Part shown: positions 1,698 through 27,881 of the stretch, in pieces
Layout: the number at the start of each line of letters is the position of its first letter
Position numbering within the stretch: position 1 is the first letter of the stretch
Assembly (NCBI GenBank): GCA_018241765.1
Contig: JAFEDD010000068.1
Coordinates: 1-48,863 of the forward strand
Direction: 5' to 3'
DNA from: Pseudomonadota bacterium
Lineage (GTDB): Bacteria > Pseudomonadota > Gammaproteobacteria > Burkholderiales > Casimicrobiaceae
DNA length: 48,863 bases
Made by a program: the position numbers and the translations under genes
The notes under the pieces: model-generated
What the model was told of the DNA's origin: nothing
Database searches by the model: none
Seen by the model: only the letters and a program-made list of their open reading frames with translations

Positions 1698-2867
1698 TCA
1701 CCGCCACAGCACCACCGCGACGACGAGCAGCAGCACGACGACGGCGGCGACGCCGATGATGACGCCGCGCGGGCCGCGTGAGCCATCGTAGCGCTGGCGC
1801 GCTCCTGCGCGGGCGGCGCCGATGGGCGCCGCGTCGCCATCGGACGCGGGCGATGCGGCGGTTGGCGTGGCCGGCGCAGAATCACCGGGCGCACCGCCTT
1901 CCGCGACCCGGCGCGGCCCCCGCGACGCCACCGATTGCGTCACTTCCTGTGGCGCCGCTGGCGGTCGTGCCACCTTGATCCAGCCGAGCGCGGCGCGGAA
2001 CTCGCTGATGCTCTTGAAGCGGTCGATGGCGCGAACGGCCAGCGCACGGCCGACCGCCGTGATGAGTGCGGGTGAGTATCCGGCGGCGGGCGCGACTTCA
2101 TGAAGCGAGGGCTGCGAATCGCGCACGATGCGCGTGGTGGCAGCGACCGGCGGGCGGCCGCTGGCGAGAAAGAAGATGACGGCGCCAAGACCGTAGACAT
2201 CGGTCCAGCGCCCTTGCTCCATGCTGCCGTCATCGACGTACTGCTCGATGGGGGCGAAGCCCGGTTTGAGCACGGTGGTGAGCGCCTGCGTCATGCCGCC
2301 CAACACCTGCCGCGCCGACCCGAGGTCGAGCAGCACGGTGGCACCGTCGGGCATCACGAGAATGTTGTCCGGCGAGACGTCGCGATGGATCACGCGGTGC
2401 GCATGCAGTTCCGCCACGGCTTCGAACACCGGGTCGAGCCACGCGCGGATTTGCTCCTCGCTGGAGCTGCCACCCAGCTCGGCACGCAACTGACGCAGCG
2501 TTTTGCCTGCGTAATACTGCATCGCCATGTACGCGGTGCCGTTTTGCTCCCAGACACGGTGGACGGCCACCAGCGCGGGATGGGCAAACTCGGAGAGCAT
2601 CCGCGCCTCGCGCAGAAAGCCCTTGAGCCCAGTCGCGTAGGCCTTGGCCAGATCGGTCGTGCGCGGCACGATTCGCCCGTCCGCACCGCGCGCGGCGATG
2701 GCGCTTGGCAGGAATTCCTTGATCGCCACCGTGCGTCCGGTGCCGACGTCGCGCGCAAGATACACGACACCGAATCCGCCCTGCCCGATGAGCCCGGTGA
2801 TCTCGTGGCCCTCCAGCATCGACCCAGGGCGCAGGCTGTCAAAGGCGTTGGAAACGGATGGGGGCAT
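1698..2867 (-). CDS. Tail-anchored Hanks-type Ser/Thr protein kinase (PpkA-like)
   Basis: A 389-residue kinase. Motifs seen: glycine loop IGQGGFGVVY (27-36), catalytic Lys50 in VAIKEF, HRDVSPDN (161-168), and DLG (181-183) in place of DFG. A Pro/Ala-rich linker follows, then one transmembrane helix (about 369-387) that ends two residues before the C-terminus. The kinase is therefore cytoplasmic and tail-anchored, with no sensor domain outside. The start ATG at 2867 was chosen because the upstream open frame is out of character for a kinase N-terminus; the start motif (LRPGSMLEGHEI) aligns with the other three kinases here. It is transcribed divergently from the kinase at 3114. A likely role is phosphorylating FHA-binding partners of the T6SS, countered by PppA; this is inferred from context. 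Confidence 0.9.
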   Translation of the reverse strand: MPPSVSNAFDSLRPGSMLEGHEITGLIGQGGFGVVYLARDVGTGRTVAIKEFLPSAIAARGADGRIVPRTTDLAKAYATGLKGFLREARMLSEFAHPALVAVHRVWEQNGTAYMAMQYYAGKTLRQLRAELGGSSSEEQIRAWLDPVFEAVAELHAHRVIHRDVSPDNILVMPDGATVLLDLGSARQVLGGMTQALTTVLKPGFAPIEQYVDDGSMEQGRWTDVYGLGAVIFFLASGRPPVAATTRIVRDSQPSLHEVAPAAGYSPALITAVGRALAVRAIDRFKSISEFRAALGWIKVARPPAAPQEVTQSVASRGPRRVAEGGAPGDSAPATPTAASPASDGDAAPIGAARAGARQRYDGSRGPRGVIIGVAAVVVLLLVVAVVLWR

Positions 2868-3040
2868 CGCTGCAGGTGTAGGCAACAGAAAAGGCGACGG
2901 ACGCGACGTGCAAGCGGCAATTGTGCCTCGGCGGCGCGCATCCGTAGAGACGGGTTTGCCCGCAACATCATGCCATGGCCGCAGCGACGCTCGCCCGACG
3001 GCGTGACACGAATGCCGCAGATCGGAGCCAGTCGCAACTG

Positions 3041-3054
3041 CGTAACACGTTACG
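3041..3054. promoter_or_regulatory. Perfect inverted repeat between divergent kinase genes
   Basis: CGTAAC-AC-GTTACG is a perfect 6+6 bp palindrome with a 2-bp centre. It lies 60 bp upstream of the kinase ATG at 3114 and about 170 bp upstream of the kinase starting at 2867, in the 246-bp divergent promoter region. Its position suits an operator that could control both genes, but no regulator is identified and a 14-bp palindrome can occur by chance. Confidence 0.35.
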
Positions 3055-3113
3055 TCTTTGGGTTTGACCACGGACACGGGATAATCGAAGAGTCAACGCC
3101 CCATCGAAGTCTG

Positions 3114-5333
3114 ATGGAACACCCTGCCCAACAAAACCTGAACCAACTCGCCGTCGGCACCGTGCTTGGCGACTTCCGTATCTCGGGTGTCGTGGGCGAG
3201 GGCGGTTTTGGCATCGTCTACCTTGCGTACGAATCGGCGCTCGATCGCACGGTCGCCATCAAGGAATACCTTCCGTCCTCGATCGCGGGGCGCACGGGCG
3301 ATCAGTCGGTGCACGTGCGCTCGCAGCTCAACGCCGATGCCTTCGCCTCGGGTCTGCGCAACTTCCTGCGCGAAGCGCAGATGCTGGCGCGCTTCTCGCA
3401 CCCGGCGATGGTCGAGGTCCATCGCGTGTGGGAACAAAACGGCACCGCGTACATGGCGATGCGCTACTACGCCGGCCGCACGCTGCGCGAGGCGCGTCTG
3501 GCCGACGGCGAAATCGACGAAGCTTCGATGCGTCGCGTGCTCGAACCGGTGCTCGACGCGCTCACGCTGCTGCACGCGCAAAACGTCATCCACCGCGACG
3601 TCTCGCCCGACAACATCCTGATTCGTGACAACGGCGCTCCGGTGCTGCTCGATCTCGGTGCCGCGCGACTCGTCGTCGGCGGTATGACGCAGGCCCTCAC
3701 CACCGTGCTGAAGCCGGGTTACGCGCCCATCGAGCAGTACGTCGATGACGGCACCATGCAGCAAGGGCCTTGGACTGATGTCTACGGCCTCGGCGCCGTG
3801 CTCTACTACCTGCTGCTCGGCGCCGCGCCACCGCAGGCCGTCGCGCGCATGATCACCGATCCGATGCGTGACCTCGCCAGCCGCGTTCAGGCCAGTTTCC
3901 CCGCGCACCTCGTCGAGGCCACGATCAAGGCGTTGGCCGTGCACCCCGAGCAGCGCTTCCAGAGCGTCGATGCACTCCGCGAAGCGCTCGGCTGGACCGA
4001 AGCCGCCCCGCTCGAAACGCGCTTCGTTGGTGGCTCCGAGGGCGGTGCGGGCCGCGTCGATGCCACGGCGGTTCGCCCCACCACGGGCGGCGGTGCACCA
4101 CGCGCAGCCTCCGTCGCGCCACCGCCACGCAGCCAACCGGCCACGCCACCGCCGATTCCGCCGCCTGCCACAGCGATCGAGGCAGATCCGAACGCCACCA
4201 TCGTCTGGAAAACGGGCGACCAATCCGCAGCCTCGGCGCGACCCAGAACCCTCCCACCCGCGTCGCCCGCCAAACCGACGACTGCACCGTCCACCCCCTG
4301 GGCTGCTGCTTCGGCTGCCCCCTCGGTCGGCCCATCGGCCGCCCGCTCGGCCAGTCCATCGGCCACCGCGCCCGCCCGGCCGACGGCGGCCAAACCTGCG
4401 GCAACGCCAAGCGCCGGGCTCGCACGTCCGCAGCGCGGCAGCGACTATGAATCCTCCGCCGGTGGCGGCGCTGCACGCTGGATCGCCGCGTTCGTGGTCG
4501 CCGCCGCCGTCGCCGGTGGCGGCTACTACCTCCTCGGCCACTCTGGCAAGCGCCCGGGCGCCGATGCGCCGGCCGTCGCGAGTGCGCCCACCGCGCCGCC
4601 AGGGGTGCCTGCCCCGGACGTGCCGGGCGTCGGCGTGACAACGCCCGAACCGAGCGCGGCCGCGCTCGCCGCACAAGCCAAGCTCGACAACGAACGCCGC
4701 GCCCGCGAGAAGGCCGAGCAGGAACAAGCCGCCAAGGCGCAACGCGATGCCGACGCTGCCGCCAAAGCCGAGGCCGCTCGCCTTGCGAAAGAGGCGAAGC
4801 TCAAGGCCGAAGCCGACGCCAGAGCGGAGGCCCAGGCGAAAGCCAAAGCCGATTCCGAACGCATCGCCAAGGCTCGCGCCGAGGCCGACGAGCGAGCGCG
4901 CCGCCAGCGCCAGGACGAAGACGCTCGCGCCGCCGCGGCGCGTGCCAAACAAGACACCACGGGCCACGGCACACCGTCGCCGGTACCGCCCCCCGCCACT
5001 TCCACCGTCACAGGCTCGGGCGCCCCGCGCCGCATCGAAGACCTCTCCGCACAAGCCATGGCCGCGTTCCGGCGCGGCGATCTGGCCGGCGCACGCGCGC
5101 TCTGGAGCGAAATCACATCGCACGCACAGGCCAGCGGCACGGACAAGGCGCGCGCCTACAACAACATGGCCATCAGCTACTGCAACAACGGCGACGAAAT
5201 CGCCTGCGAGCGCATGTACACCGCCATGCTGCGCAGCGACCGCAACTACTCCGTCAGCGCCGGCGAGCGGGAGGGCGACAAATACAAGCGCGCCTTCGAT
5301 CGAGCCTGGCGCACCGTGCGCGGCGGCGACTGA
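3114..5333 (+). CDS. Transmembrane Ser/Thr kinase with coiled coil and TssQ-like extracytoplasmic domain
   Basis: A 739-residue kinase. The cytoplasmic kinase domain (about 20-295) has VGEGGFGIVY, Lys50, HRDVSPDN (160-167) and DLG (180-182) where DFG is usual. A long Pro/Ala/Ser linker leads to a transmembrane helix (about 456-475). Outside lies an Ala/Glu/Lys/Arg-rich coiled coil (about 520-615), then a TPR-like C-terminal domain (641-739). That last domain resembles the TssQ lipoprotein encoded at 23690-24190: RGD/RGE near its start, a matching C-x7-C pair (C690, C698), and FDRAWRTV at the end against FDRARRAV. The ATG at 3114 was chosen by alignment with the other kinases; the open frame continues upstream but overlaps the divergent kinase gene. 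It may sense the T6SS envelope complex through its outer domain (inference). Confidence 0.9.
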   Translation: MEHPAQQNLNQLAVGTVLGDFRISGVVGEGGFGIVYLAYESALDRTVAIKEYLPSSIAGRTGDQSVHVRSQLNADAFASGLRNFLREAQMLARFSHPAMVEVHRVWEQNGTAYMAMRYYAGRTLREARLADGEIDEASMRRVLEPVLDALTLLHAQNVIHRDVSPDNILIRDNGAPVLLDLGAARLVVGGMTQALTTVLKPGYAPIEQYVDDGTMQQGPWTDVYGLGAVLYYLLLGAAPPQAVARMITDPMRDLASRVQASFPAHLVEATIKALAVHPEQRFQSVDALREALGWTEAAPLETRFVGGSEGGAGRVDATAVRPTTGGGAPRAASVAPPPRSQPATPPPIPPPATAIEADPNATIVWKTGDQSAASARPRTLPPASPAKPTTAPSTPWAAASAAPSVGPSAARSASPSATAPARPTAAKPAATPSAGLARPQRGSDYESSAGGGAARWIAAFVVAAAVAGGGYYLLGHSGKRPGADAPAVASAPTAPPGVPAPDVPGVGVTTPEPSAAALAAQAKLDNERRAREKAEQEQAAKAQRDADAAAKAEAARLAKEAKLKAEADARAEAQAKAKADSERIAKARAEADERARRQRQDEDARAAAARAKQDTTGHGTPSPVPPPATSTVTGSGAPRRIEDLSAQAMAAFRRGDLAGARALWSEITSHAQASGTDKARAYNNMAISYCNNGDEIACERMYTAMLRSDRNYSVSAGEREGDKYKRAFDRAWRTVRGGD

Positions 5334-8930: not shown

Positions 8931-8987
8931 GAATTTCTCTCCCTGTGTGGCCGGTGCGCTTGGCGAGTTGCCAACCCGCAATGACGG

Positions 8988-11666
8988 TCAGATAAAGTGA
9001 TAGACGAAATCGCTGTCGGCTACGGACATCGAAATGCGTTGCAACGCGACGCCATCGATGCTGCGACGCAGGAACTCCTCCGACAGTCGAGGCAGGATGG
9101 TGTTGGTCAGAATGGCGTCGATCATGCGGCCACCGCTCTCGATCTCGGTACACCGCGAGGCAATCAGTTGCACCACCGCGTCGTCGTAATCGAAGGCAAC
9201 CTTGTGGTTCTCGGCGACGCGCTTCTTGATGCGCCCAAGTTGCAGCCGGATGATGTTGCCGAGCAGCTCGTCGGAAAGCGGGTAATACGGAATGACCTGC
9301 AAGCGGCCGAGCAGCGCCGCCGGGAAGACTTTCAGCAGCGGTTCGCGCAGCGCTTTGGTGATGTCGTCGGGGGCAGGCATCAGTTCGGGGTCGCGCGTCA
9401 TGCTCATGATGAGATCGCTGCCGACGTTGCTGGTGAGGATGATGACGGTGTTCTTGAAGTCGATCAGACGCCCCTCGCCGTCTTCCATGATGCCCTTGTC
9501 GAACACCTGGAAGAAGATTTCGTGCACGTCACTATGGGCTTTCTCGACCTCGTCGAGCAACACCACGCTGTAGGGCTTGCGACGAACCGCCTCGGTCAGC
9601 ACACCGCCTTCGCCGTAGCCCACATAGCCCGGTGGCGCGCCCTTGAGCGTGGAGACGGTGTGCGCCTCCTGGAATTCGCTCATGTTGATGGTGATCATGT
9701 TCTGCTCGCCGCCGTAGAGCTGCTCGGCAAGCGTCAGCGCGGTCTCGGTCTTGCCCACGCCCGAGGGCCCAACGAGCATGAACACCCCGATCGGTTTGTT
9801 CGGGTTGTCCAGGCGCGCTCGACTGGTCTGGATGCGTTTGGCGATCAAGTCGAGCCCGTGCCGCTGGCCGATCACACGCTGGTTCAGGGTGTCGGCGATT
9901 TTCAGCACCGCCTCGACCTCGTTCTTGACCATGCGCCCGACCGGTATGCCGGTCCAGTCGGCCACGACCGAAGCGACTGCCTGCGCGTCGACCGCTGGGA
10001 GAATCAACGGCGCGTCGCCCTGCAGCGCCTGCAATCTGGCGTGAAGCTCATGCAATTCGGTCAGCAGCGCCGCCCGCGCTTCGTCGCCCAAAGGCACGGC
10101 GGTGTCGACCTTGCCGTCCCCCGAACCACGCAACTTGCCGCGAAGATCGAGGATCGATTCCACCAGAGCCTTCTCGTCCTTCCAGCGCGTCTCCAGCGTT
10201 GCGAGCGTTGCCGCCTGCGCGTCGCGCTGCGCCTGCGCGTCGGCGCGGCGGGCACCGACATCGATGCCGACCGCCGCTTCGCGATCGATGATGCCGAGCT
10301 CAACATCGAGCATCTCGATGCGCCGCTGCGTGTCCTCGACTTCTGGCGGCGTCGCGTGCTGGCTGACCGCCACCCGCGCACAGCTGGTGTCGAGCAGGCT
10401 GACCGCCTTGTCCGGCAGCTGCCGCGCCGGAATGTAGCGATGCGACAAATTGACCGCCGCCGCGATCGCCTCGTCGAGCAGCAGCACCTTGTGATGCTTC
10501 TCGAGCACGGTGGCCACGCCGCGCAGCATCGCGATCGCCTTCGCCTCGTCCGGCTCGGGGATCTGCACGACCTGGAAGCGGCGCGTCAACGCAGGATCTT
10601 TTTCGATGTACTTTTTGTACTCCGACCACGTGGTCGCGCCGATCGTGCGCAGGGTGCCCCGCGCAAGCGCCGGCTTCAGCAGGTTGGCGGCGTCGCCCGT
10701 TCCGGCAGCGCCCCCCGCGCCCACCAACGTGTGCACCTCATCGACGAACAGGATGATCGGCTTCGGGCTGGCCTGAACCTCATCGATGACCTGACGCAAC
10801 CGCTGCTCGAACTCGCCCTTCATGCTGGCTCCGGCCTGCAGCAGACCGATGTCGAGTGTCAGCAGCGAAACATCCTTCAATTGCGGCGGTACATCGCCTT
10901 TGGCCAGTCGCAACGCGAAACCCTCGACCACGGCAGTCTTGCCGACGCCTGCCTCGCCGGTCAAGAGCGGGTTGTTCTGGCGACGCCGCATGAGAATGTC
11001 GACGATCTGGCGGATTTCCTCGTCGCGCCCCGTCACCGGATCGATTTCACCCTTGCGCGCCTTTTCCGTCAGGTCGACGGCGAATTTCTTCAAAGCCTCC
11101 TGCTTGCCCATCTGCGCGGGCGCCATCGCGCCGCTCGCCTCGCCCGGCGCCCCGCCAAGCCCGATGCCATCGCTCGCGGCGAGCGCCTCCTCCGGCGACC
11201 CCTTCACGATGTCAGCCAGCCGTTCGGCCACCGCATCGATGCCGATCTTTTCGAACTCCTTCGAAATGCCGTAGAGGATGTTGCGTAGCCCCATCGTCTT
11301 CACGATGCCGACGATCAGGTAGCCACTGCGCACCTGCGCTTCGCCGTACATGAGCGTGCCGTACACCCAGCCCCGCTCGACGGACATTTCGATGTGCTCC
11401 GACAAATCGGATATGGACGTCGCGCCGCGTGGCAGTCGGTCCAACGCACGCGTCAAGTCCGCCGCCAGCTTCGATGCATCGAGTTCGAAGTGGCGCGTGA
11501 TGCGATGCAGATCACTGTCGTTGTTGCTGAGGATCTGATGCAGCCAATGCACCAGTTCGACGTAGGGATTGCCGCGCAGTTTGCAAAAGACCGTTGCCCC
11601 TTCGATCGCCTTGTAGAGCAAAGGATTGAGCTTCCCGAACAGAGCGTTGCGACTGATTTCCGACAT
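8988..11666 (-). CDS. tssH: T6SS AAA+ ATPase ClpV (TssH)
   Basis: An 892-residue ClpB-like ATPase, the usual length for ClpV. An N-terminal double Clp-N domain comes first (1-160). The first AAA+ module has Walker A GEAGVGKT (237-244) and Walker B ILFVDE (305-310). A ClpB-like middle domain lies at about 435-550. The second module has Walker A GPSGVGKT (633-640). The early residues ([14 protein letters not shown]) are typical of ClpV rather than ClpB. It disassembles the contracted TssB/TssC sheath in the cytoplasm. It is last of the tagJ-tssE-tssF-tssG-tssH string, 43 bp after tssG. Confidence 0.97.
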
Positions 11667-11709
11667 GCTTTTTCTCCTGCCTCCGAATCCCTATTGTTGG
11701 CCGTGGCAC

Positions 11710-12852
11710 TCAGCGCGTGCGCGCCGAGCGTGCGCTGAGACCCTCGATATCGAGAATGACGTCGTCGGCATCGCCGGCGTGCATGGTTTGCGGAGCACGC
11801 ACCCAACTGCTCCAGCCGAGCCGCGCGCTGTCGCCAAGGCGCATCGCGGGAACGTCGCTGCGCGCGAGCACCAATTGCGCATCCCAGGCGATTTCGACGC
11901 CGATGTAATTGCGTACCCAGTCGCGCACCTGCAGGTGGCGAACGCCGCCCGGCAAGAAGCGCTCGAATTCGTCGAGCCGCATCGGGCCGAAACGCAGCCT
12001 GAACTTGTGCTGCACGTCGAGGATGCGGGCGCCGATGACCGCACCGAGCCCGAGCCGTGAAGCGTTGTCGCCGAGCTCGATTCGGTGTCTGCCACCGTCG
12101 CCCGCTGTTGCCACCGAACGCAGACACGAGCGATCATGTTCGGCCAGGCGCAGCCACTGCGCGCAGTACTCCGCCATGGTGACGGGAACCTTGAGCATGG
12201 CGCGAAAGCCTCCGAGCAGCCCCTGGGCGTTTCGCGTTTGCCGCGCCAGGTGGCCCGCCTGATGCAGTTTGATGTGGTCAGGAACGCTGTCGCGTCGCCG
12301 CAGCGACGCCTGGCCATACCCGATGAGGCTGCCGGCGAAGCGCCCGAAGTGGTCTCGCTGGGGATGGTCGAGACTGGTGACGGCCTGCGCGTCCGCCCAT
12401 GCCCGATAGAAAAGCAGCAACATCCGGTGCTGAAACACGTCAAAGAAACGCGCGATGGTCGTGTCCTTGTGATGCAGCACGCGCTCCTGGACGTACTCCG
12501 TCAGGTGCTGCGGCAACGCGCCGTTCGGCCCGAAGAGGCCGAAGTGATACACCGAGAGCCGTCCCAGCCCGGTCGCCGTCGCGTCGGGCGTGTAGCTGTG
12601 CAGCGTCGCTGGCGCAAACATGAGGCTCGGTTGTTGCGTCATGCGCAGCGGTTCGTCACGAGGGCGTGGGCCACGCCCGAGCGGCGTGTCGCCCGGCAGC
12701 TGGGCGTCTACGTAGCGCAGCGCGTAATAGAAATCAAAGCGTGTGGCGTCCGCGGCCATCCCCGTGAACAAGCGTTGCAGGCGTTCGTCACGCAGGCGCG
12801 GCGTCGCCTCATCATCGCTGGACAGTACGCGAGCGCGGCCACGTTCACTCAT
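11710..12852 (-). CDS. tssG: T6SS baseplate protein TssG (ImpH/VasB)
   Basis: A 380-residue baseplate wedge protein. The region near residues 30-45 (GMAADATRFDFYYALRYVD) and the later SVYHFGLFGPNGALPQHLTE segment match the TssG family. The ATG at 12852 was chosen because it lies 10 bp after the tssF stop and gives the usual family length; the open frame runs further upstream only because it overlaps tssF. TssG joins with TssF, TssE and TssK to build the baseplate. Confidence 0.95.
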   Translation of the reverse strand: MSERGRARVLSSDDEATPRLRDERLQRLFTGMAADATRFDFYYALRYVDAQLPGDTPLGRGPRPRDEPLRMTQQPSLMFAPATLHSYTPDATATGLGRLSVYHFGLFGPNGALPQHLTEYVQERVLHHKDTTIARFFDVFQHRMLLLFYRAWADAQAVTSLDHPQRDHFGRFAGSLIGYGQASLRRRDSVPDHIKLHQAGHLARQTRNAQGLLGGFRAMLKVPVTMAEYCAQWLRLAEHDRSCLRSVATAGDGGRHRIELGDNASRLGLGAVIGARILDVQHKFRLRFGPMRLDEFERFLPGGVRHLQVRDWVRNYIGVEIAWDAQLVLARSDVPAMRLGDSARLGWSSWVRAPQTMHAGDADDVILDIEGLSARSARTR

Positions 12853-12862
12853 CGACCATCCC

Positions 12863-14737
12863 TCATGCCGCGGGCCGTTTGCCGATGCGCGGTGGCCACG
12901 CGGCGATGGCACCTCGTTGCAGCGATTGCAACGACAATTCCGTGAACGAGTTGATGGCGACGTGCCGCGCAAAGAATTGTTCGAGCACGGACGCGAGCAG
13001 CCAGGGACTGGAACCGGCGAACGGAATTTCGTCAACCTCCAACGCCAGCGCCACGCCGCGACCGAACGCGATGGGGCCAGGGTTGGGCACACGCCGGTTG
13101 ACGGGTGTGGCGTTGATTTTTTGCACGCCCGCGATCTGCGCATCCGCCCCGGACACTGCGAGCCGCGCATACAGGCCGAGCAGGTCGCGCAACGCTGCCG
13201 CCCCTTCAGCGGGGCTGAGGTCGGTGAGGGTGAGGTAGTTCAAACTCAGGTGCGAGATGAGCCGCCACGTGATCTCGCGCTCCGCGAGCGCGGGCGTCGG
13301 ACGCGTCGGGCCCGCCACGAAGTTGATGCTGTCGACGGGTGCCGCCGACAGCAATGCGAGATCGCTCCCCTCGGTGCCAACCGGCGTCAGCAACGGCAGA
13401 TCACGATTGGTGCATAGCGCGTCGATCGTCACTTGCCGCAAGTCCAGCGAGAACGGTGCTTCGGCGGCGTCGACCAGGGAGACGAAGCATTCGCTGCCGA
13501 TGTAACCGCTGCGCGCACCGTTACGCCGCGCCCGGTCAGACAGCAGGCGTGGTTCACGGCGAACGGAGAAGTAGCTGCCACCGCCATGCCGCGTCGTGTC
13601 CGCAAGCGCGTAGAACGGCGTGAAATTGATCTCGCGATCGGAATCGGAGACGTGTCCCGTGACGCCGCGCACGCTGTGAATCTCGAAGTCGAGCGGGCGT
13701 GCGCGATCGATGACCGCATGGTATTCGAAGCGGGTGGATGTGATCGGGATGCGATCACTGCGCCGCTCGAAGAGATTGACGACCGGCGAGCAAAACAGCG
13801 CGAAATTTTCGGCATCGACGACCGATTCCAGCGCCGCACTCTCTTGCTTGAGGAGAATCACGACTTCGAATTGGTCGCCTTCGATACCGGGCAACGCCTT
13901 CTGCAATCCGTTGATCGAAAAGAACCGGTAGCGTTCGGGGAACGCAAAATATTCGTGCAACAGGCGGTAGCCCTCGAAGGCGCGCAAATCTTGCGGCAGC
14001 AGCGCCTGATCGACGGCGTAACCTTCGGCCGCAAGCGCCGTTGGCGGCAGTGGCGCCAACCCGCGTGTGGGCAACGAGCCCGCGTGAACCAGGATGCCGA
14101 CGCAACTGGTGTGCAACAGCTCCTGCAGTTTCGAGACAACATCCGTCGGACCACGCATGAAGACCGGAAGCGAATCGAGTTTGAGCGCGTCCACCCGCGC
14201 CTGCGCAGTCGTCTCGAACACCAGGCGCAGCGCACCGCGAACAGCGCTGCGCCAACGGTAGCCCGTCATCGGGAGGTCCGGTGGCGCCGCGGTCAGTCGT
14301 GCCTCCCGAAGCCGGATGGGCCACAGAGTGACATCGTGGCCCGTGCGAAACTCACAGGCCGTCTGCTCCTGCGGAGCGAGGCGGGCACGCATACGCGACA
14401 GACGCGGAATGGTGTAACCATCGACCGACCCTCCTTCGGCTCGTGAAGGCTCGAACCGAACGACGCCCATCGACGGCGTCGGTGCGAGATAGCCGGGGTA
14501 GACGAGTTCGAGCAGCCGCTGTGAGAAGCGCGGAAACTCAGCGTCCATCTTGAGCTGGATGCGCGCCGACATGAACGCGAACCCTTCGAGCAGGCGCTCG
14601 ACGTACGGATCCGCGACGTCCATGCCGTGCATGCCGAGGCGCGCGGCAACCTTCGGAAACTGGGCTGCGAACTCGGCGCCTTGTTCGCGAACGTACGCGA
14701 GTTCGCGGTTGTAGTAGTCGAGCATCCGCGGGTCCAT
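12863..14737 (-). CDS. tssF: T6SS baseplate protein TssF (ImpG/VasA)
   Basis: A 624-residue protein of typical TssF length. The N-terminus (MDPRMLDYYNRELAYVREQG, then EFAAQFPKVAARLGM and DPYVERLLEGFAFMSARI) is a clear family signature. It forms the TssF2-TssG baseplate wedge core. Its ATG overlaps the tssE stop by one base (TGATG), so translation is probably coupled. Confidence 0.97.
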   Translation of the reverse strand: MDPRMLDYYNRELAYVREQGAEFAAQFPKVAARLGMHGMDVADPYVERLLEGFAFMSARIQLKMDAEFPRFSQRLLELVYPGYLAPTPSMGVVRFEPSRAEGGSVDGYTIPRLSRMRARLAPQEQTACEFRTGHDVTLWPIRLREARLTAAPPDLPMTGYRWRSAVRGALRLVFETTAQARVDALKLDSLPVFMRGPTDVVSKLQELLHTSCVGILVHAGSLPTRGLAPLPPTALAAEGYAVDQALLPQDLRAFEGYRLLHEYFAFPERYRFFSINGLQKALPGIEGDQFEVVILLKQESAALESVVDAENFALFCSPVVNLFERRSDRIPITSTRFEYHAVIDRARPLDFEIHSVRGVTGHVSDSDREINFTPFYALADTTRHGGGSYFSVRREPRLLSDRARRNGARSGYIGSECFVSLVDAAEAPFSLDLRQVTIDALCTNRDLPLLTPVGTEGSDLALLSAAPVDSINFVAGPTRPTPALAEREITWRLISHLSLNYLTLTDLSPAEGAAALRDLLGLYARLAVSGADAQIAGVQKINATPVNRRVPNPGPIAFGRGVALALEVDEIPFAGSSPWLLASVLEQFFARHVAINSFTELSLQSLQRGAIAAWPPRIGKRPAA

Positions 14738-15267
14738 CAGTTGGTTCCCGTCGAAAGTTGGTCAGCGATCGAAATTTGTCGTGTTTCCAGATCCCATTCC
14801 GTACGCACGAACAGTTCGATCGGAAACGGCAATGACCAGAGTTCCCCTCGAATCTCGAATTGAAGCTTGTTGTGGTGATTCATCGAATCGGTTGTCGTAA
14901 CGGCCTGAACGACCAGCGAATCCGGCAGGATACGTGGCTCGAACGCAAGAATCGATTCACGGATCGCGCTTTCGATGTCACCCCATTCGATGTCGGAGAA
15001 GTGCTTTCCCGACAACACCGGAATGCCGTAGTTGATGACCGATTTGCGAACTTCCGGGTGCGCTTCGAGTTCGCCGGCGACATCGTACGCCGTGGTGTTG
15101 AGCAACCACGCAAGGTCACGCAGAACCGTGCGCTTCAGGCGCTGCTTCGAGACGACCGCGTGCTCCGACGTTTCCTTGCGCTTTTCGGGTTCATCATCGG
15201 TGAGACGATCGAGCAATGCGGGTTGCAGGCGATCCGCTTCCGACCGTTGCAGGGTGCGGTTCTCCAC
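14737..15267 (-). CDS. tssE: T6SS baseplate protein TssE (gp25-like)
   Basis: A 176-residue protein related to phage T4 gp25. It carries the conserved stretch LRDLAWLLNTTAYD and the family-typical segment SVINYGIPVLSG, with a late FEIRGELW strand. The start at 15267 is GTG with no clear ribosome-binding site, so the exact N-terminus is open. TssE links the baseplate to the sheath. It lies 80 bp after tagJ and overlaps tssF by one base. Confidence 0.95.
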   Translation of the reverse strand: MENRTLQRSEADRLQPALLDRLTDDEPEKRKETSEHAVVSKQRLKRTVLRDLAWLLNTTAYDVAGELEAHPEVRKSVINYGIPVLSGKHFSDIEWGDIESAIRESILAFEPRILPDSLVVQAVTTTDSMNHHNKLQFEIRGELWSLPFPIELFVRTEWDLETRQISIADQLSTGTN

Positions 15268-15347
15268 GATTCAACGGCAACGCAACGCGGCACGAGGTCG
15301 ACGGTTCGACGACAGGCTCGGCGACGATACCGCGGGGTACACGATCG

Positions 15348-16160
15348 CTACCCAACCCGATGGTCCGCGATGACCTCGGGGCGCGCAATCAGACGAGTGT
15401 CAAGAATCGGGTGATCGCCATGATCGCTCGTAAACATGCGTTGACCCAGCCCGAACCAGACGTCTTCACCACGCGCGACCCACTCGGTTGCGGCCGCAAG
15501 CTTGAGGGTGTCAGCGTTGCCCGATGTCGCCTCCGTGGTGCCGACGTAGCGGGTCGGCACCAAGGCGGGAACTCGGCCTTCGTTCGGAAGCATGATTTCA
15601 GCGGGACACCAGACGAGGTCGCGAAGGTCGACCGGCTTTTCAAAGGAAACGCCGCTGCACGATTCGAAGGGGAGCCAGTAGTACTGCCCGTTCACGATCA
15701 CCTCGAGCACAGGCCCGAGGCGTGAATCAGCGTCTGCGATCCACTCGACGTCGACGCCATCGACTCGAAACGCCGCTGGCTCGGCCGTGTCAAGCGCTTG
15801 CGCGCGAAGTCGCGCGGCCGCGGCAGAATTTCCGGCCTGGTCGTGCTTCAGCGCCTCGATCAACGGACCGATCCAGTCGGGCGGCTGCCCCATCACTTGT
15901 GGCACACGTTCGCCCGCGAACACCTTGTGGCGGAAGGTTTCGCACCGGATTGCCTCGCGGTACGTCTGCGCCATCGGCAGCGCCTTGGTATCCAGCTGGG
16001 CGCTGAGCTGTAGCTGCGAGAGCGCACGCGGCCAGTTGCCCATGACGCATAGCAACTGAAACAGGTGAATGCGCAACGCGGCGTCGCTGGCGTGCGTTCG
16101 GATGCTCGACTGCAACGCGTCAAGCTGTTGCTGCAGCGATTGCGAACGGTCGATGCTCAT
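15348..16160 (-). CDS. tagJ: T6SS accessory protein TagJ (ImpE family)
   Basis: A 270-residue ImpE/TagJ-type protein. Its N-terminal half is helical and TPR-like (MGNWPRALSQLQL), and the C-terminal half has the family strand WLPFESCSGVSFEKPVDLRD followed by DLVWCPAEI. TagJ binds the N-terminal part of TssB and acts with ClpV in sheath recycling. The ATG is preceded by GAGGGG at a good distance. It is the first gene after the hcp terminator and likely starts the tagJ-tssEFGH unit, by its own promoter or by read-through. It marks the system as the HSI-I-like type found in Pseudomonas aeruginosa. Confidence 0.92.
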   Translation of the reverse strand: MSIDRSQSLQQQLDALQSSIRTHASDAALRIHLFQLLCVMGNWPRALSQLQLSAQLDTKALPMAQTYREAIRCETFRHKVFAGERVPQVMGQPPDWIGPLIEALKHDQAGNSAAAARLRAQALDTAEPAAFRVDGVDVEWIADADSRLGPVLEVIVNGQYYWLPFESCSGVSFEKPVDLRDLVWCPAEIMLPNEGRVPALVPTRYVGTTEATSGNADTLKLAAATEWVARGEDVWFGLGQRMFTSDHGDHPILDTRLIARPEVIADHRVG

Positions 16161-16200
16161 GAATTCCCCTCGATCGCATCAGTCGCGGCGATGCCGGCCG

Positions 16201-16241
16201 AAAAAACCAAGTCGGCAGAGACGGGGTTCGTCTCTGCCGAC
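16201..16241 (-). terminator. Intrinsic terminator downstream of hcp
   Basis: A perfect 13-bp inverted repeat, GTCGGCAGAGACG with a 5-base loop and CGTCTCTGCCGAC (16211-16241). On the minus strand it is followed by TTGGTTTTTT (complement of 16201-16210). It begins 20 bp after the hcp stop codon. This is the clearest terminator in the window. It would separate the abundant hcp transcript from tagJ-tssEFGH. Confidence 0.92.
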
Positions 16242-16260
16242 ACGCAGCGTTGCGATTGCC

Positions 16261-16749
16261 TTAGAGCTTGATGTTCTTCGCTGCGTTCCACCCCGCGGTC
16301 ACCTTGGCACCCGGGTTGCCATCGGCCTTGAGCGGCGTGTACTCTTTCTTGATCGACTCGTAGGTGAACGTATAGGTCACCATCGGTTGACCGTTCGCCG
16401 ACGTCCCGCTCCCCGTGTTGATGCCGGTGAACATCACGTTCTTCAGTTCGACCGACTCGAAAACGACTTGCTTTTTGTTGGACATCTTGCACGCTTCGAG
16501 CTTGACCGTCGGGACGGTGTCGCCTGTTGCCAGTTGATAGAAGATAACGGGCATCGCCTTGTCGAGCACGGCATGGATGGTGAGATCGTGATGATCCGCG
16601 CCACCGACGTTGCCGCCCGAGCCGATAGCAAAGCTGCCCTGGTTGCTGGCGCTGATGCTGAACGGTTCGATATCGATCCAGTTTTTGTGCCCTTGGTCAT
16701 TGCTGTCGCCGTCGGCGCCATCGACCTTCATGAAATTCATTGTTGCCAT
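16261..16749 (-). CDS. tssD: T6SS tube protein Hcp (TssD), second copy in the operon
   Basis: A 162-residue Hcp. Family features: the GDSNDQGHKNWIDIEPFS start, the HDLTIHAVLDKAMPVI strand, and a C-terminal EYTPLKADGN segment. Hcp hexamers stack to form the inner tube and can carry small effectors. It follows the other hcp by 45 bp, and AGGA sits upstream of the ATG. The two Hcp proteins are clearly diverged, so they may be used for different cargo or conditions (inference). Confidence 0.96.
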   Translation of the reverse strand: MATMNFMKVDGADGDSNDQGHKNWIDIEPFSISASNQGSFAIGSGGNVGGADHHDLTIHAVLDKAMPVIFYQLATGDTVPTVKLEACKMSNKKQVVFESVELKNVMFTGINTGSGTSANGQPMVTYTFTYESIKKEYTPLKADGNPGAKVTAGWNAAKNIKL

Positions 16750-16794
16750 GATGATGATCCTTCAATATTGGGTGAAAGCGTTCGCGCCGGCTGA

Positions 16795-17274
16795 TCAGCC
16801 GCCCTTGTTCTCATTGATATCCCAGTAGTGGCTGATCTCGCCACCCTTGCCACCGTCCTTGGTTTGCGGCGTGTACTTGACCGTGAGCTTGGCGAAGTTG
16901 AGGCTGTAGTCGGCCGAAGGATGCTCGCCGGCGGTACTGGTGTGGTAGTTGCTGACGATGATGTTCTCCATCTCGAGCACCAGATATTTGAGCTTGCTGT
17001 CGCCCGTTTCCCGGATGCATTCCAGCTTGCCTTTCGAGATCGTCTTGCCGTTGGAGCAGAACAGGAACATGTCCACGCTCGCGGGGCAGAGATGCGTCGT
17101 GAAGTTCAGGTCGGTAAACGACGTCTTGCCCGTGCTGCCGCCGCCGCCCGCCTTGATGCCGCTCGGGTGATGCGCGCCGATGTTCCAGTTGTCGACGTCC
17201 ATCCAGTCTTTGTGTCCAGCATCTTGGGAGTCGCCCTTGACGCCGTCGAGTTGCAGGTAGAACTGTGTTGCCAT
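16795..17274 (-). CDS. tssD: T6SS tube protein Hcp (TssD), first copy in the operon
   Basis: A 159-residue Hcp paralogue: GDSQDAGHKDWMDVDNWNIG near the N-terminus, then FTTHLCPASVDMFLFCSNG, and VKYTPQTKDGG near the C-terminus. The ATG has a strong ribosome-binding site (TAGGAG, 7 bases away). A 162-bp gap separates it from tssC. No sigma-70 promoter was evident in that gap, but hcp genes often have their own. Cysteines in the LCPASVDMFLFC and LECIRET stretches are absent from the other copy at those places. Confidence 0.95.
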   Translation of the reverse strand: MATQFYLQLDGVKGDSQDAGHKDWMDVDNWNIGAHHPSGIKAGGGGSTGKTSFTDLNFTTHLCPASVDMFLFCSNGKTISKGKLECIRETGDSKLKYLVLEMENIIVSNYHTSTAGEHPSADYSLNFAKLTVKYTPQTKDGGKGGEISHYWDINENKGG

Positions 17275-17436
17275 GATTCGCTCCTAGATAAGCGGTTAGG
17301 TTATTGCGCCTGACGGGACCCTGTGGGTGGCGATGCCGCCTACCGCTCAAAGTTCGTCACATCCGAATAGACGCGGCGGACAACCGGAAAGCGTCACGCC
17401 GCAGAAAATTCCCGAAACGGCGGGGGTTACGGCAGG

Positions 17437-18936
17437 TTACTTCGCCTGCGCCTTGACCGAAGGCAGCTTCGACACGAGGCGCAGGGACACCGTCAACCCC
17501 TCCAATTGATAGTGGGGACGCAGGAACATCTTCGACGTGTAGTAGCCCGGATTTCCCTCGACTTCCTCCACGGTCACCTCGGCGGCCGCCAGCGGTTTGC
17601 GCGCTTTCGTCTCCTGGCTCGACGTCTGCGGATTGCCGTCGACGTAGTTCATGATCCAGTCGTTGAGCCACCGTTGCATATCCTCGCGCTCGCGGAACGA
17701 ACCGATCTTGTCGCGCACGATGCACTTCAGGTAGTGCGCGAAACGGCAGCAGGCGAACATGTACGGCAAGCGCGCGGCGAGATTGGCGTTCGCCGTGGCG
17801 TCCGCGTCGTAGTACTCCGCCGGTTTGTTCAGCGATTGCGCGCCGATAAAGGCGGCGATATCGGTGTTCTTGCGGTGCACGAGCGGCATGAACCCATTCT
17901 TCGCCAGCTCCGCCTCGCGACGGTCGCTGATGGCGATCTCGGTGGGACACTTCATGTCCACGCCGCCGTCATCGGTGGGGAACGTATGGGCGGGCAAGTC
18001 CGTCACGATACCGCCCGACTCGACGCCACGAATCGAGGTACACCAACCATACTCCTTGAACGAGCGATTGATGTTGGCCGCCATCGCGAACGCAGAGTTC
18101 GTCCACGTGTACTTGGCATGCGAGCCACCTTCGGTGTCTTCTTCGAAGGCAAATTCATCAACCGGGTTGGTCTTTGCGCCGTACGGCATCCGCGACAAAA
18201 AGCGCGGCATCGCCAAACCGACGTACTTGGAATCGTCGGAATCCCGCAGGCCGCGCCATGCGGCGTATTCGGTATTGCTGAAAATCTTGGTGAGATCGCG
18301 AGGATTGGCAAGCTCCTGCCAAGACGACATCTGCATGATCGCCGGAGACGCGCCAGCGATGAAGGGCGCATGAGCCGCCGCCGCAACGCGAGCCATTTCG
18401 CCCAGAAGTTCGGCGTCGGGTGCACTGTGGTCGAAGAAATAGTCGCCGACGAGACAGCCGTAGGGTTCCCCGCCAAACTGTCCGTATTCCTCCTCGTACA
18501 GTTTCTTGAAAATGGGGCTTTGATCCCATCCGGTCCCTTTGTAGCGCCGCATCGTCTTGCGCAAATCATTTTTGGTGATGTTCATCACCCTGATTTTCAG
18601 CATTTCGTCGGGATCCGAATTGTCGACCAGGTATTTGAGCCCCCGCCACGTGCCTTCTATCTTCTGGAATTCTTCATGATGAAGAATCAGGTTCATCTGG
18701 TCCGACAATTTCTTGTCGATTGCGGCGATCAAACCTTCGATCGTGCGATACGCGTCGGTGCTGATGGTGGCCGTATTGGCGAGCGCCTGCTGTGCGAGCG
18801 TCTGCACGGCGTTTTCGATCGCGCCGCGTGCTTCGTCGGTTTTCGGTCGAAACTCTTTGTTCAGCAGCGACGCAAATTCGCTTCCCTGGAATTCGACGCC
18901 AGCAGGAGCGGCAGCAGTTTTCGATTCAGTAGCCAT
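17437..18936 (-). CDS. tssC: T6SS sheath large subunit TssC (VipB)
   Basis: A 499-residue protein of typical TssC length. Signatures include EEFQKIEGTWRGLKYLV (about 87-103), GEPYGCLVGDYFF, and a C-terminal MFLRPHYQLEGL. TssB and TssC form the contractile sheath. GGAGG sits upstream of the ATG. It starts 17 bp after the tssB stop. Confidence 0.98.
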   Translation of the reverse strand: MATESKTAAAPAGVEFQGSEFASLLNKEFRPKTDEARGAIENAVQTLAQQALANTATISTDAYRTIEGLIAAIDKKLSDQMNLILHHEEFQKIEGTWRGLKYLVDNSDPDEMLKIRVMNITKNDLRKTMRRYKGTGWDQSPIFKKLYEEEYGQFGGEPYGCLVGDYFFDHSAPDAELLGEMARVAAAAHAPFIAGASPAIMQMSSWQELANPRDLTKIFSNTEYAAWRGLRDSDDSKYVGLAMPRFLSRMPYGAKTNPVDEFAFEEDTEGGSHAKYTWTNSAFAMAANINRSFKEYGWCTSIRGVESGGIVTDLPAHTFPTDDGGVDMKCPTEIAISDRREAELAKNGFMPLVHRKNTDIAAFIGAQSLNKPAEYYDADATANANLAARLPYMFACCRFAHYLKCIVRDKIGSFREREDMQRWLNDWIMNYVDGNPQTSSQETKARKPLAAAEVTVEEVEGNPGYYTSKMFLRPHYQLEGLTVSLRLVSKLPSVKAQAK

Positions 18937-18953
18937 GGTGGTGCGTCCTCCGT

Positions 18954-19469
18954 TCAGGCGTTCGGCGTGTCGTTGGGTTTCGGTGCGGACGAAAGCGATG
19001 TCATCAGCGCTGGGTCCTGAAGAACTTTCGACAACAATTCCTCAGCTCCGGATTTGCCGTCCATGTAAGAGAGCAAGTTGTGCAACTGTGTGCGCGCCTC
19101 GAGCAACTCATTCAATGCTCCCACCTTCCGCGCTACAGCCGCTGGCGAAAAATCATCCATGTTCTCGAACGTGACGTCGACCGACATATAGCCTTCACCG
19201 GTCAGTGTGTTGGGGACGGTAAACGCAACGCGCGGTTTGATCGCCTTCATGCGGGCATCAAAATTGTCAAAGTCGATTTCGATGAATTTCCGGTCGGCGA
19301 TGTCCGGCAGGGGCTCTTCGGATTTTCCGGACAAATCTGCCATCACGCCCATGACGAACGGAATCTGTACTTTCTTCTCCGAGCCATACACCTCGACGTC
19401 GTATTCGATCTGCACGCGCGGCGCACGGTTTTTGGCAATCCACTTTTGTCCACTTTTCTTGGCTGACAT
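18954..19469 (-). CDS. tssB: T6SS sheath small subunit TssB (VipA)
   Basis: A 171-residue TssB: SGQKWIAKNRAPRVQIEYDV at the N-terminus, IPFVMGVMADLSG, FIEIDFDNFDARMKAIKP, and an EARTQLHNLLSYMDGK helix. AAAGGAG precedes the ATG. It pairs with TssC to form the sheath. The N-terminal helix is the part that TagJ recognises in systems of this type. Confidence 0.98.
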   Translation of the reverse strand: MSAKKSGQKWIAKNRAPRVQIEYDVEVYGSEKKVQIPFVMGVMADLSGKSEEPLPDIADRKFIEIDFDNFDARMKAIKPRVAFTVPNTLTGEGYMSVDVTFENMDDFSPAAVARKVGALNELLEARTQLHNLLSYMDGKSGAEELLSKVLQDPALMTSLSSAPKPNDTPNA

Positions 19470-19512
19470 AGTTCAGTGCTCCTTTGCTTGAACGATTCGA
19501 TCGAAGACTCGG

Positions 19513-20538
19513 TTACTCATCGGCTGGTGGTTGCACACCGGTGAGCATTTCCAGATGTGACATGGAATCGGGCGACAATTCGCGCATGATGTCCATGAAG
19601 GGCATGTTGAGCATGCGTTGCGCACGTTTCGCGAACAGCGCGGCAGGGTTGCTGGGCTCGGCCCGCTCGAGGTAATCGACCACGCGATCAAGCGCTCGGC
19701 GAACGTCTTCGCGGCTTTGAATGGCGCCCGAAACACCACCCGCACTGGAGCCGCCCGCGCCTTGCGCGTCGCCCTCGGAGGCGTCGCCATCCGCCGCAGC
19801 GCCGTCCATCGAGGCGACGATGGCGGTGACGCCGTTGGCGACCGTCTTCAAAATCGATTCGAGCCGCTCCAGATCAGGGCGTTCTTCGATATTGGCCTTT
19901 TCCGCAACCAATGCGGCAAGTTCCTGAAACGTGGAAAACGCTTCAATGACCGAGCGAACCTCTTCGTTTCCGGACGCGAGCGCATCACGCAAGGCGGACT
20001 CCACCTGACCCAGCGTGTACGTCGCCTCTGGCGCTTTCTCGAACACCAGCTCGGCATCGCGGTAGCTCAAAGTCAGCGGTTGCCGGACGAGAACCGTTGC
20101 GCGCAAGGCCTGGATCAGTTTGTCTTCACCAGAAAATTCGGAGCCGGAAAACGAACCGATCGCGTTCATCCGGAGGTAGGCGTCGGTTTCCCCGTCGATT
20201 TCGATGCGGGGATGGACGCCGTCCCATTGTTCCCGGCATAGTTGCAGCACCAGGCGCAAACCCGCCGTGAACGCGGACACTCCGTGCAACCACGTATTTG
20301 CCAACGTCAACCATGCGATTACGCGCAAGTCGCGCGTGCGTCCCAACAGGTCCCGCGCCAGAGCATCCACCTGACGCCAATCGGGCAGTTCGGCGGGAAT
20401 GATGGTGTCGCCGAATTGTTGTTCGGGTTTGCCGGCAACAGCCTGTGCCAGCGCGAGAAAGTCGTTGTCGTACTCGCAATCGGGCCCGCACGGGTTTTCA
20501 CCGTCCAGCGGTTGTGCAAATTGCTCGAAATCGATCAC
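19513..20538 (-). CDS. tssA: T6SS cap/priming protein TssA (ImpA)
   Basis: A 341-residue protein with an ImpA_N domain (DGENPCGPDCEYDNDFLALA near residue 20 and RDLRVIAWLTLANTWLHG). The C-terminal segment (RRALDRVVDYLERAEPSNPA) is also typical. The frame is open to a TTG at 20562, but GGGAG lies 10 bases before the GTG at 20538 and 4 bases before another TTG, so the GTG was chosen; the difference is at most eight residues. TssA primes and caps sheath growth. It begins the tssA-tssB-tssC-hcp-hcp unit. The 170-bp gap to pppA may hold a promoter, though none is convincing. Confidence 0.92.
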   Translation of the reverse strand: MIDFEQFAQPLDGENPCGPDCEYDNDFLALAQAVAGKPEQQFGDTIIPAELPDWRQVDALARDLLGRTRDLRVIAWLTLANTWLHGVSAFTAGLRLVLQLCREQWDGVHPRIEIDGETDAYLRMNAIGSFSGSEFSGEDKLIQALRATVLVRQPLTLSYRDAELVFEKAPEATYTLGQVESALRDALASGNEEVRSVIEAFSTFQELAALVAEKANIEERPDLERLESILKTVANGVTAIVASMDGAAADGDASEGDAQGAGGSSAGGVSGAIQSREDVRRALDRVVDYLERAEPSNPAALFAKRAQRMLNMPFMDIMRELSPDSMSHLEMLTGVQPPADE

Positions 20539-20710
20539 GGTCAACTCGCTCCCAATACCCAAATGCTGTCCGGGTCACATCGTCGCGCCCAAGCAGCAAG
20601 GCTACTGCGCCACGGACTGCTTGACAAGTGACAGCCGCCACGCTGCGCGTTACATGAAGTTACACCGCAGTCGTGCACATCGTACAGACGTATCCACGAC
20701 GCCAAACGCG

Positions 20711-21535
20711 TCACGCTGGCTGCACGGAGAGCGGCGGCATGGTGCGTTGATCGTCGTCGTCGGCGCTCTGCGGCGACAACGCGCACCGCACCAACAGAGC
20801 ACTGAAGTTATCGTGCCCGGGCGCCATTCGCCCACGCACCGCCGCCACCATGTTATCCCGCCATGTTGCGACCGAGGTACTCATCGCGTGCAGCCTTCCG
20901 AGCGTGGCTTCGTCGACCAGTTCCCACACGCCGTCACTGCATAGGAGGACGCCATCGCCCGGCAGCAGTTCAATGGCCGCGGAACTCACGTACGGCTCAA
21001 CCCCTTCCTCGTTGGCACCCAGGGACGCATAGAGCACGTTGCGCTTGGGGTGCTCGCGCAATTTTTCGACCGGATACAAGCCAGCGTCGATGAATCGCTG
21101 CACGAGACTGTGGTCGTACGACTGTGCAATGATTTGGGAACCTCGCAAGACGTAGCAGCGGGAATCGCCCAAGTTCCCGATCAGCGCTTGGCGTTGACGG
21201 TAATCGATGAGGATACCGACAAAGGTCGAGGCCATGCGCGCCAAACGACTTTCCGGCGTTTGCTTCTGTCGAATGGCACTGTCGGCCGCGGCGATACAGT
21301 GGCGCAGTGTTTCTGGACCGAAAGCAGGGAAGCGCATGAACTGCGCACGCGCCGCCGCAATCGCCGTCTGCGACGCGACATCGCCGCCGCCCTGCCCGCC
21401 CGCCCCGTCGGCGAGCATAAACAGGCGCACCGCACCGAAAGCGTCGCTGTCGCCGACGGCGTCCTCGTTGTAATCCCGACCGCCATCATGCGAGAAACTC
21501 GCCGACTCCAAGCGCAGTTCGCCACCCGTACTCAT
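20711..21535 (-). CDS. pppA: PP2C-type Ser/Thr phosphatase of the T6SS (PppA)
   Basis: A 274-residue PP2C enzyme with all metal-binding motifs: GGRDYNEDAVGD (18-29), LADGAGGQGGGD (41-52), IGNLGDSRCYVLR, CSDGVWELVD, and GHDNFSALLV. No transmembrane segment, so it is cytoplasmic. In the P. aeruginosa H1-T6SS, PppA reverses phosphorylation of the FHA protein by PpkA and shuts the system down; the same job is expected here. Its ATG overlaps the stop of the FHA gene by 4 bp (ATGA), so the two are probably made together. Confidence 0.95.
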   Translation of the reverse strand: MSTGGELRLESASFSHDGGRDYNEDAVGDSDAFGAVRLFMLADGAGGQGGGDVASQTAIAAARAQFMRFPAFGPETLRHCIAAADSAIRQKQTPESRLARMASTFVGILIDYRQRQALIGNLGDSRCYVLRGSQIIAQSYDHSLVQRFIDAGLYPVEKLREHPKRNVLYASLGANEEGVEPYVSSAAIELLPGDGVLLCSDGVWELVDEATLGRLHAMSTSVATWRDNMVAAVRGRMAPGHDNFSALLVRCALSPQSADDDDQRTMPPLSVQPA

Positions 21536-23689: not shown

Positions 23690-24190
23690 TCAACGCCCGA
23701 GAACGGCTCGGCGCGCGCGATCGAACTGCGGGCCCCACACGGGATGACCACGTTCAGCCGGCGCGAGATCGAAACCAGGATCCGCTCGAAACGCACGCTC
23801 GAAGCTGTGGCGGCAAGCGGTAATCGCTCCTACCGAGCATTGCGAAAACGCCAACACTTTCAGCGCGCGCAGCAATTGCGCCGGGTCTAGCGATCCGTCG
23901 GTCGTCATCGGATTCAATTGCCGAATGGCGGAAGAAAATTCACCGCGATCGTAGCTGGCGATGGCAGCGCTCAGCGCGCGCTCGCTGGCGGACGGCTCGA
24001 CCGCTGGCGCCTCGGGTGCCGCGGTCGGCACCGGAGCAGCGGGCGCCGGCGTCGGAGCGGGGGCGGGGGCAGGAGCGGGTGCAGGATAGTTCGTGGTTTC
24101 GGGCGGCGTCGTCGCGCAGCCCGCGAGCAGAGCGAGCCACAGTATTGCAGCCGAATACCCGTGGGATCGAGGCTTGTCAGACAGTTTCAT
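23690..24190 (-). CDS. tssQ: TssQ-family T6SS-associated lipoprotein
   Basis: A 166-residue lipoprotein. The ATG at 24190 gives a signal peptide with lipobox LLAGC (lipidated Cys25), then a Pro/Ala tether (35-65) and a TPR-like domain (70-166). Typical TssQ features: YDRGEFSSAIRQL, LLRALKVLAFSQC, an RADPGFDLAPAERGHPVWGP segment, and FDRARRAV. A C-x7-C pair (C118, C126) may form a disulfide in the periplasm. Function in the T6SS is not established. It is not TssJ, which has a different fold. The 165-bp gap to the upstream kinase holds no recognised gene. Confidence 0.85.
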   Translation of the reverse strand: MKLSDKPRSHGYSAAILWLALLAGCATTPPETTNYPAPAPAPAPAPTPAPAAPVPTAAPEAPAVEPSASERALSAAIASYDRGEFSSAIRQLNPMTTDGSLDPAQLLRALKVLAFSQCSVGAITACRHSFERAFRADPGFDLAPAERGHPVWGPQFDRARRAVLGR

Positions 24191-26143: not shown

Positions 26144-26183
26144 GATCTCATCTCGCAAATGTGGGGGAACGACGCCATGACGT

Positions 26184-27788: not shown

Positions 27789-27881
27789 GTAACGCCTCAA
27801 TTTTTATGACAGCGAGAACCATATCAGCAATCGTGGCCGCTCGCCAGTCGCCCCACCATGGGCAACCCCGGTTGAAGGCGG

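Follow-up and report, generated by a model that had tools for sequence, protein, structure and literature searches.

A Ser/Thr kinase of a T6SS locus carries a predicted periplasmic domain that resembles the lipoprotein TssQ

TssJ is the usual lipoprotein of the type VI secretion system (T6SS) membrane complex, and PpkA, the T6SS kinase of Pseudomonas aeruginosa, has a VWA domain; the fusion protein described here may bear on how T6SS kinases read the envelope. Among the closest described systems is that of Acidovorax citrulli, in which TssW is an outer-membrane protein with its gene between ppkA and fha, pulls down PpkA and TssM, and in two-hybrid assays binds PpkA, TssM and TssJ at their periplasmic domains, the first two strongly and TssJ weakly (PMC12607579). 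The same study relates that TssW places the T6SS away from the poles, that T6SS number and place shift with the TssW/PpkA/Fha balance, and that Casimicrobium huifangae is a TssW carrier (PMC12607579). The TssQ of the Bacteroidota TssNQOPR set shares only its name with the TssQ considered here, being described as a protein of the inner membrane whose transmembrane helix is N-terminal and whose helical part is elongated; the lipoprotein of that set is TssR (PMC10781749).

The window, i.e., the whole stretch of 48,863 nucleotides that was analyzed, comes from a betaproteobacterium of the Casimicrobiaceae (contig JAFEDD010000068.1) and holds a T6SS locus with four kinases in all (Table 1), of which the one at 3114..5333 is our subject. 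The tssQ gene sits between a PEGA kinase and tagH/fha, which is the tssW position, and in relatives with contigs covering the place it likewise has the PEGA kinase on one side and TagH on the other. Judged by gene position only, we infer that the window TssQ is TssW; like TssW, it is a small exported protein encoded between a PpkA-type kinase and fha, and when the T6SS stretches were scanned crudely for lipoboxes, TssQ was the one protein found. Unlike the separate outer-membrane protein TssW, the TssQ/TssW-like domain is in this genus also fused to a kinase. The original prediction had regarded TssQ as known only as a T6SS-associated lipoprotein, which is not supported, the same-position gene having been studied as TssW (PMC12607579). 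Among the neighbors, the kinase directly upstream of tssQ scored 116.6 bits against our own PEGA profile, of which it is itself a seed; for the second PEGA-ending kinase, no Pfam PEGA was reported at E<=0.01. The two Hcp-like proteins of the core score below cut-off.

Table 1. Positions of the fused kinase, its parts and the T6SS genes in the window
Feature	Position	Strand	Basis
Divergent Ser/Thr kinase, ends just past a transmembrane stretch	1698..3077	-	Pfam
Ser/Thr kinase, 739 aa, C-terminal domain TssQ-like	3114..5333	+	translation, Pfam, NCBIfam
Kinase domain, residues about 15-300	3156..4013	+	Pfam PF00069, residues 23-243, 1.3e-31
Single predicted transmembrane helix, residues 457-475	4482..4538	+	hydropathy
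TolA-like Ala/charged spacer, residues 515-615	4656..4958	+	NCBIfam tolA_full, 2.3e-9
TssQ-like TPR-type domain, residues 641-739, C690-x7-C698	5034..5330	+	NF038027, BLASTP, hhalign, AlphaFold
T6SS core: ClpV, TssG, TssF, TssE, ImpE-type protein, two Hcp-like, TssC, TssB, TssA	8988..20562	-	
PP2C phosphatase (PppA-like)	20711..21535	-	NF033484, 136 bits, below cut-off 230
TagH / Fha	21532..23646	-	TIGR03354
TssQ-family lipoprotein, 166 aa	23690..24190	-	NF038027, 97.9 bits (cut-off 65); lipobox candidate
Ser/Thr kinase with terminal PEGA domain, immediately upstream of tssQ (place of PpkA)	24356..26203	-	PF08308, 6.9e-5
Second PEGA-ending Ser/Thr kinase	26184..27800	-	own PEGA profile, 57.6 bits

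Both genes were recovered where they had been placed, with their products of 739 aa (3114-5333, plus strand) and 166 aa (23690-24190, minus strand). The former is a Hanks-type Ser/Thr kinase by its PF00069 match and its intact catalytic motifs, namely the G-loop at residue 28, VAIKE at 47, HRDVSPDN at 160 and DLG at 180, and the PHROGs search also returned kinase families. A Pro-rich stretch separates the kinase domain from the predicted transmembrane helix, and everything C-terminal of this helix would, on hydropathy, be periplasmic. There are 166 residues from the helix to the outer domain, including a 107-residue Pro-free part of Ala and charged residues; by the rise per residue, 100 helical residues would span about 15 nm. 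The spacer scored 37 bits against tolA_full, below the cut-off of 59.45, and this match may reflect composition alone. C690 and C698 are the sole cysteines of the whole kinase. Similar dimensions were found in the nine of the ten orthologs that were measured (the G016 kinase was left out, a stretch of Ns within the contig splitting the gene into two open frames): each has one transmembrane helix, 161-199 residues from membrane to outer domain, a longest Pro-free part of 55-113 residues, and a periplasmic part with precisely two Cys. The subject kinase thus resembles PpkA in its single transmembrane helix, its predicted periplasmic C-terminal domain and its T6SS locus with PP2C and Fha, and differs from it in that the periplasmic domain is TssQ-like; no VWA match was found in a Pfam scan of the 739 residues.

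The central observation of the original prediction, that residues 641-739 look like TssQ, was borne out in its details, since translations and alignment contain the RGD/RGE turn, the ISYC/FSQC segment, the FDRAWRTV/FDRARRAV end, and C690/C698 against C118/C126, the TssQ positions being taken from the BLASTP alignment. By BLASTP, kinase residues 648-737 align to TssQ over 90 ungapped columns at 28% identity, with E 3e-8 in this single comparison. The TssQ family model NF038027 matched kinase residues 646-730 (E 3.5e-5, 24.3 bits, far below the cut-off of 65), and the score rose to 29.7 bits in the genome search and to at most 41.7 in relatives, the cut-off never being reached. Nonetheless, the same model at E<=10 found just two places in the kinase's own genome (6 candidates scored), TssQ and the kinase; at an equally loose E, matches were seen in 6 of 14 control genomes, none of them over cut-off. 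Across 17 genomes of the genus, 21 places were matched at E<=0.1, and these were 11 TssQ genes and 10 such kinases. The two checks proposed at the outset agree: the profile-profile comparison of 10 kinase domains with 11 TssQ domains by hhalign gave a probability of 97.9 (E 6.3e-13; 97 columns aligned at 27% identity), and separate AlphaFold models of the kinase outer domain and of TssQ have six helices in register. In length, register and C-x7-C pair, the kinase domain is thus like the NF038027 family, from which it differs in its low score, its lack of a lipobox and a mostly lost HPxWGP motif; hydropathy and the lipobox scan found no lipoprotein signal, but an internal transmembrane helix instead. 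For TssQ itself, PHROGs gave weak spanin matches (3.4e-4 and 7.8e-3) to the N-terminal Pro/Ala-rich part.

The fusion was also found to accompany the T6SS within the genus, in support of the original prediction. Twelve of the 17 genomes are TssC-positive; 11 of these have TssQ and 10 the fused kinase, which lies inside the T6SS cluster, while the five TssC-negative genomes have neither (T6SS-negative here means no TssC match, and the genomes are partly incomplete). One T6SS-positive genome (G009) has the locus and the flanking genes with the fused kinase missing, and the kinase is therefore not essential to the T6SS; in another (G003), the T6SS contig ends inside tagH. When 399 Burkholderiales genomes were searched with the kinase-domain profile (E<=0.001), 42 genomes matched, the matching kinases being confined to the kinase's own genus (3 genomes in this sample), and all 27 non-kinase loci fetched with this profile hold a TssQ relative. 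Seven further weak matches lay away from TssQ places (G057, G064, G076, G120, G271, G280 and G312; E 8e-5 to 9e-4). In a class search of 369 genomes, the 11 other matching genomes had ordinary TPR proteins (best E 1.8e-6), and no kinase was present in the 3.2 kb fetched around them. In both searches, 12-13 candidates were scored per genome, so that a weak fusion could escape. The finding that would have refuted the original prediction, kinases with this domain being common in genomes lacking T6SS, did not appear: among 118 TssQ loci outside the genus, no reading frame was found with both a kinase and a TssQ domain. Long TssQ frames, of as much as 735 aa in the order search, were considered as kinase fusions and rejected, as 0 of 15 fetched hold both domains. 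In the literature covered, from which subscription journals were mostly absent, we found no kinase-TssQ fusion and no PEGA-TssQ pair.

The TssQ family extends well beyond the T6SS. Of the 399 genomes, 117 exceeded the NF038027 cut-off and 94 had TssC, with 32 having both, 85 TssQ only, 62 TssC only and 220 neither (odds ratio 1.34, p 0.30). The 85 of 117 carriers without TssC have TssQ beside PEGA genes and Ser/Thr kinases, which speaks against the view of TssQ as a T6SS-associated protein only; the family is not tied to the T6SS in this sample, and its T6SS name seems misleading. The 118 loci (L126, L128-L141 and L143-L245) represent at least one per each of 113 carriers outside the genus; L142 (G161, 23.8 bits) was left out, contigs ending near TssQ were kept, and the 399 genomes being related, the loci are not independent. 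A Ser/Thr kinase was present in the fetched flank of 102 of the 118 (82/85 TssC-negative, 20/33 TssC-positive), on the same strand within 2 kb of TssQ in 81/85 and 17/33, respectively; a T6SS-type gene was near TssQ in 1/85 and 11/33. In 105 of the 118 loci (84/85 TssC-negative, 21/33 TssC-positive), TssQ is immediately preceded on its own strand by a PEGA domain, usually at the protein's very end, with a median gap of 112 bases between the domains, as called by a self-built PEGA profile of 11 seeds, 4 of them from these loci. Thirteen proteins were also scanned with Pfam PEGA, which did not report some of our calls. The upstream domain belongs to a kinase in 47 loci and to another frame in 58; three of these 58 were scanned with Pfam, and each has a guanylate cyclase domain (one over the cut-off, two just under). 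Three more loci have a PEGA kinase on the opposite strand. Of the remaining 10 without PEGA, 9 are in T6SS-positive genomes, and in the sole TssC-negative one (L204) TssQ is at the contig edge. Eleven control loci of ordinary TPR genes, few and short, showed no PEGA and no kinase. This pairing of a PEGA gene with a TssQ-lipoprotein gene points to a two-protein envelope signaling module that the T6SS name has hidden. As a separate observation, in nine loci (L128-L131 and L135-L139), none of whose genomes has a TssC match, a single frame next to a kinase encodes two TssQ domains in tandem.

TssK, TssL (long form), TssM and TagF are encoded on another contig of the same genome (G000:C32, L127), an example of genus T6SSs in which these genes are present and a recognizable TssJ is missing. 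One model found TssJ in 0 of the 12 TssC-positive genus genomes, and two models found none in 5 genus genomes; the same single model detected TssJ in 51 of 68 other TssC-positive genomes (23/28 with TssQ, 28/40 without), although TssJ is variable and a distant form may therefore be missed.

Part of the likeness between the two outer domains is common to the TPR fold, since both are TPR-type, their helix pairs matching solved TPR structures. One may thus ask if they share this fold only and no partner. Such a reading agrees with the Foldseek and VIA matches of both models, which are general TPR proteins, with the PDB sequence search, which gave weak TPR matches only, and with the seven order-search matches away from TssQ places and the 11 genomes of ordinary TPR proteins; it is at odds with the restriction of NF038027 matches in the 17 genomes to fused kinases and TssQ, and with the 27 of 27 non-kinase loci holding a TssQ relative. 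Moreover, the likeness is ungapped over 97 columns, taking in two helices beyond the repeats, and the C-x7-C pair occurs in 10/10 kinase domains and 128/128 matched TssQ stretches (the pattern being accepted anywhere within the stretch), as against 0/19 ordinary TPR stretches. Overall, we regard a mere sharing of the fold as distinctly unlikely. The trees speak on both sides. A quick unrooted tree (148 rows) unites the kinase domains with genus TssQ in one group (SH-aLRT 100), whereas TPR-rooted trees place the kinase domains outside TssQ (99/93 and 99/100), in agreement with a mere common fold; the grouping of kinase domains with genus TssQ is not rejected (AU p 0.112), and in the second of the rooted trees the kinase rows are not one clade. 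Thus, of the earlier wording, 'borrowed from, or shared with, TssQ', sharing stands, and on borrowing the unrooted and rooted trees disagree. A tree of the catalytic domains unites the four locus kinases as one genus set (30 rows, 100/100), and it settles no paralog of the locus as closest to the subject kinase.

The reading that we favor, and to which we assign roughly even chances, is that of a PpkA-like kinase whose TolA-like stalk ends in a TssW-like domain, by which the kinase itself docks at the T6SS membrane complex. The product would be a Hanks-type kinase belonging to the threonine-phosphorylation pathway of the T6SS, having a TssQ/TssW-like, Cys-paired TPR-type domain in place of the PEGA of its sister kinases; a helical spacer of roughly 100 residues would carry this domain across the periplasm to dock where TssW-type proteins dock, at periplasmic TssM and/or the PEGA kinase. 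Docking would hold a second active kinase at the membrane complex, where it could phosphorylate Fha or other substrates, beside or in competition with the lipoprotein. The intact kinase motifs, the neighbors kept in the genus, the G165 protein described below and the lack of a recognizable TssJ in the genus speak for this reading; against it stand the NF038027 score below cut-off, the mostly lost HPxWGP motif, the TPR-rooted trees, the G009 locus lacking this kinase and the possibly compositional TolA match. The partner may be TssM, the PEGA kinase or TssQ; the earlier suggestion of a common partner, or of binding between kinase and TssQ, is plausible, since PpkA, TssM and, weakly, TssJ are bound by A. 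citrulli TssW, which is encoded at the place of tssQ (PMC12607579). The kinase might also, as the original prediction proposed, sense the envelope state of the T6SS. Alternatively, the TssQ-like domain could bind PEGA in the two sister kinases (24356-26203 and 26184-27800), as lipoproteins of the TssQ type may do with PEGA domains generally, and couple kinases to each other rather than sense the T6SS. The direct succession of PEGA gene and TssQ in 105 of 118 loci, the reported binding of TssW to the PpkA periplasmic domain (PMC12607579), and a G165 protein with both PEGA and a TssQ-like domain lend it substance, but adjacency is not binding, the term 'PEGA' does not occur in the text of the A. 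citrulli study (PMC12607579), and the 10 loci without PEGA are mostly T6SS-positive; it is unlikely in our estimate. A decoy, in which the kinase outer domain would compete with TssQ/TssW for binding to TssM or to the PEGA kinase and so damp T6SS assembly, would be consistent with two TssW-like domains in one cluster and with the effect of the TssW/PpkA/Fha balance in A. citrulli (PMC12607579); intact kinase motifs, which a pure decoy does not need, speak against it, and we consider it very improbable.

A broader and rather doubtful picture can be drawn, in which the TssQ family would be a general outer partner of PEGA signaling proteins (kinases and cyclase-like proteins) in Burkholderiales, recruited by the T6SS as TssW and serving as outer-membrane anchor in a genus without recognizable TssJ, one kinase having exchanged its PEGA for the partner's domain on a periplasm-spanning stalk and so united kinase and anchor. 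A naturally occurring protein that joins a kinase to a likely relative of a PpkA-binding protein supports the pairing of the two and offers a single-chain object for testing it.

Several neighboring genes were also recorded. The G165 protein mentioned above (L126:6770-7564) is a predicted product; its gene belongs to a T6SS locus that also has TagH and is flanked by a kinase gene and by tssQ. In the window, a protein with peptidoglycan-binding and M23 peptidase domains (7830-8981) is encoded beside clpV, and no relative of it was found in the genus stretches searched. A patatin-like phospholipase gene (6075-7277) adjoins the subject kinase and is kept in the genus, being beside the kinase wherever the fetched DNA covers the place (9 of 10 genomes); the stretch of G016 shows neither neighbor. 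On the other flank, the divergent kinase is usual in the genus and missing in G013. Lastly, a MORN-repeat protein (27882-29900) adjoins the pair of PEGA-ending kinases and is kept in relatives whose contigs reach there.
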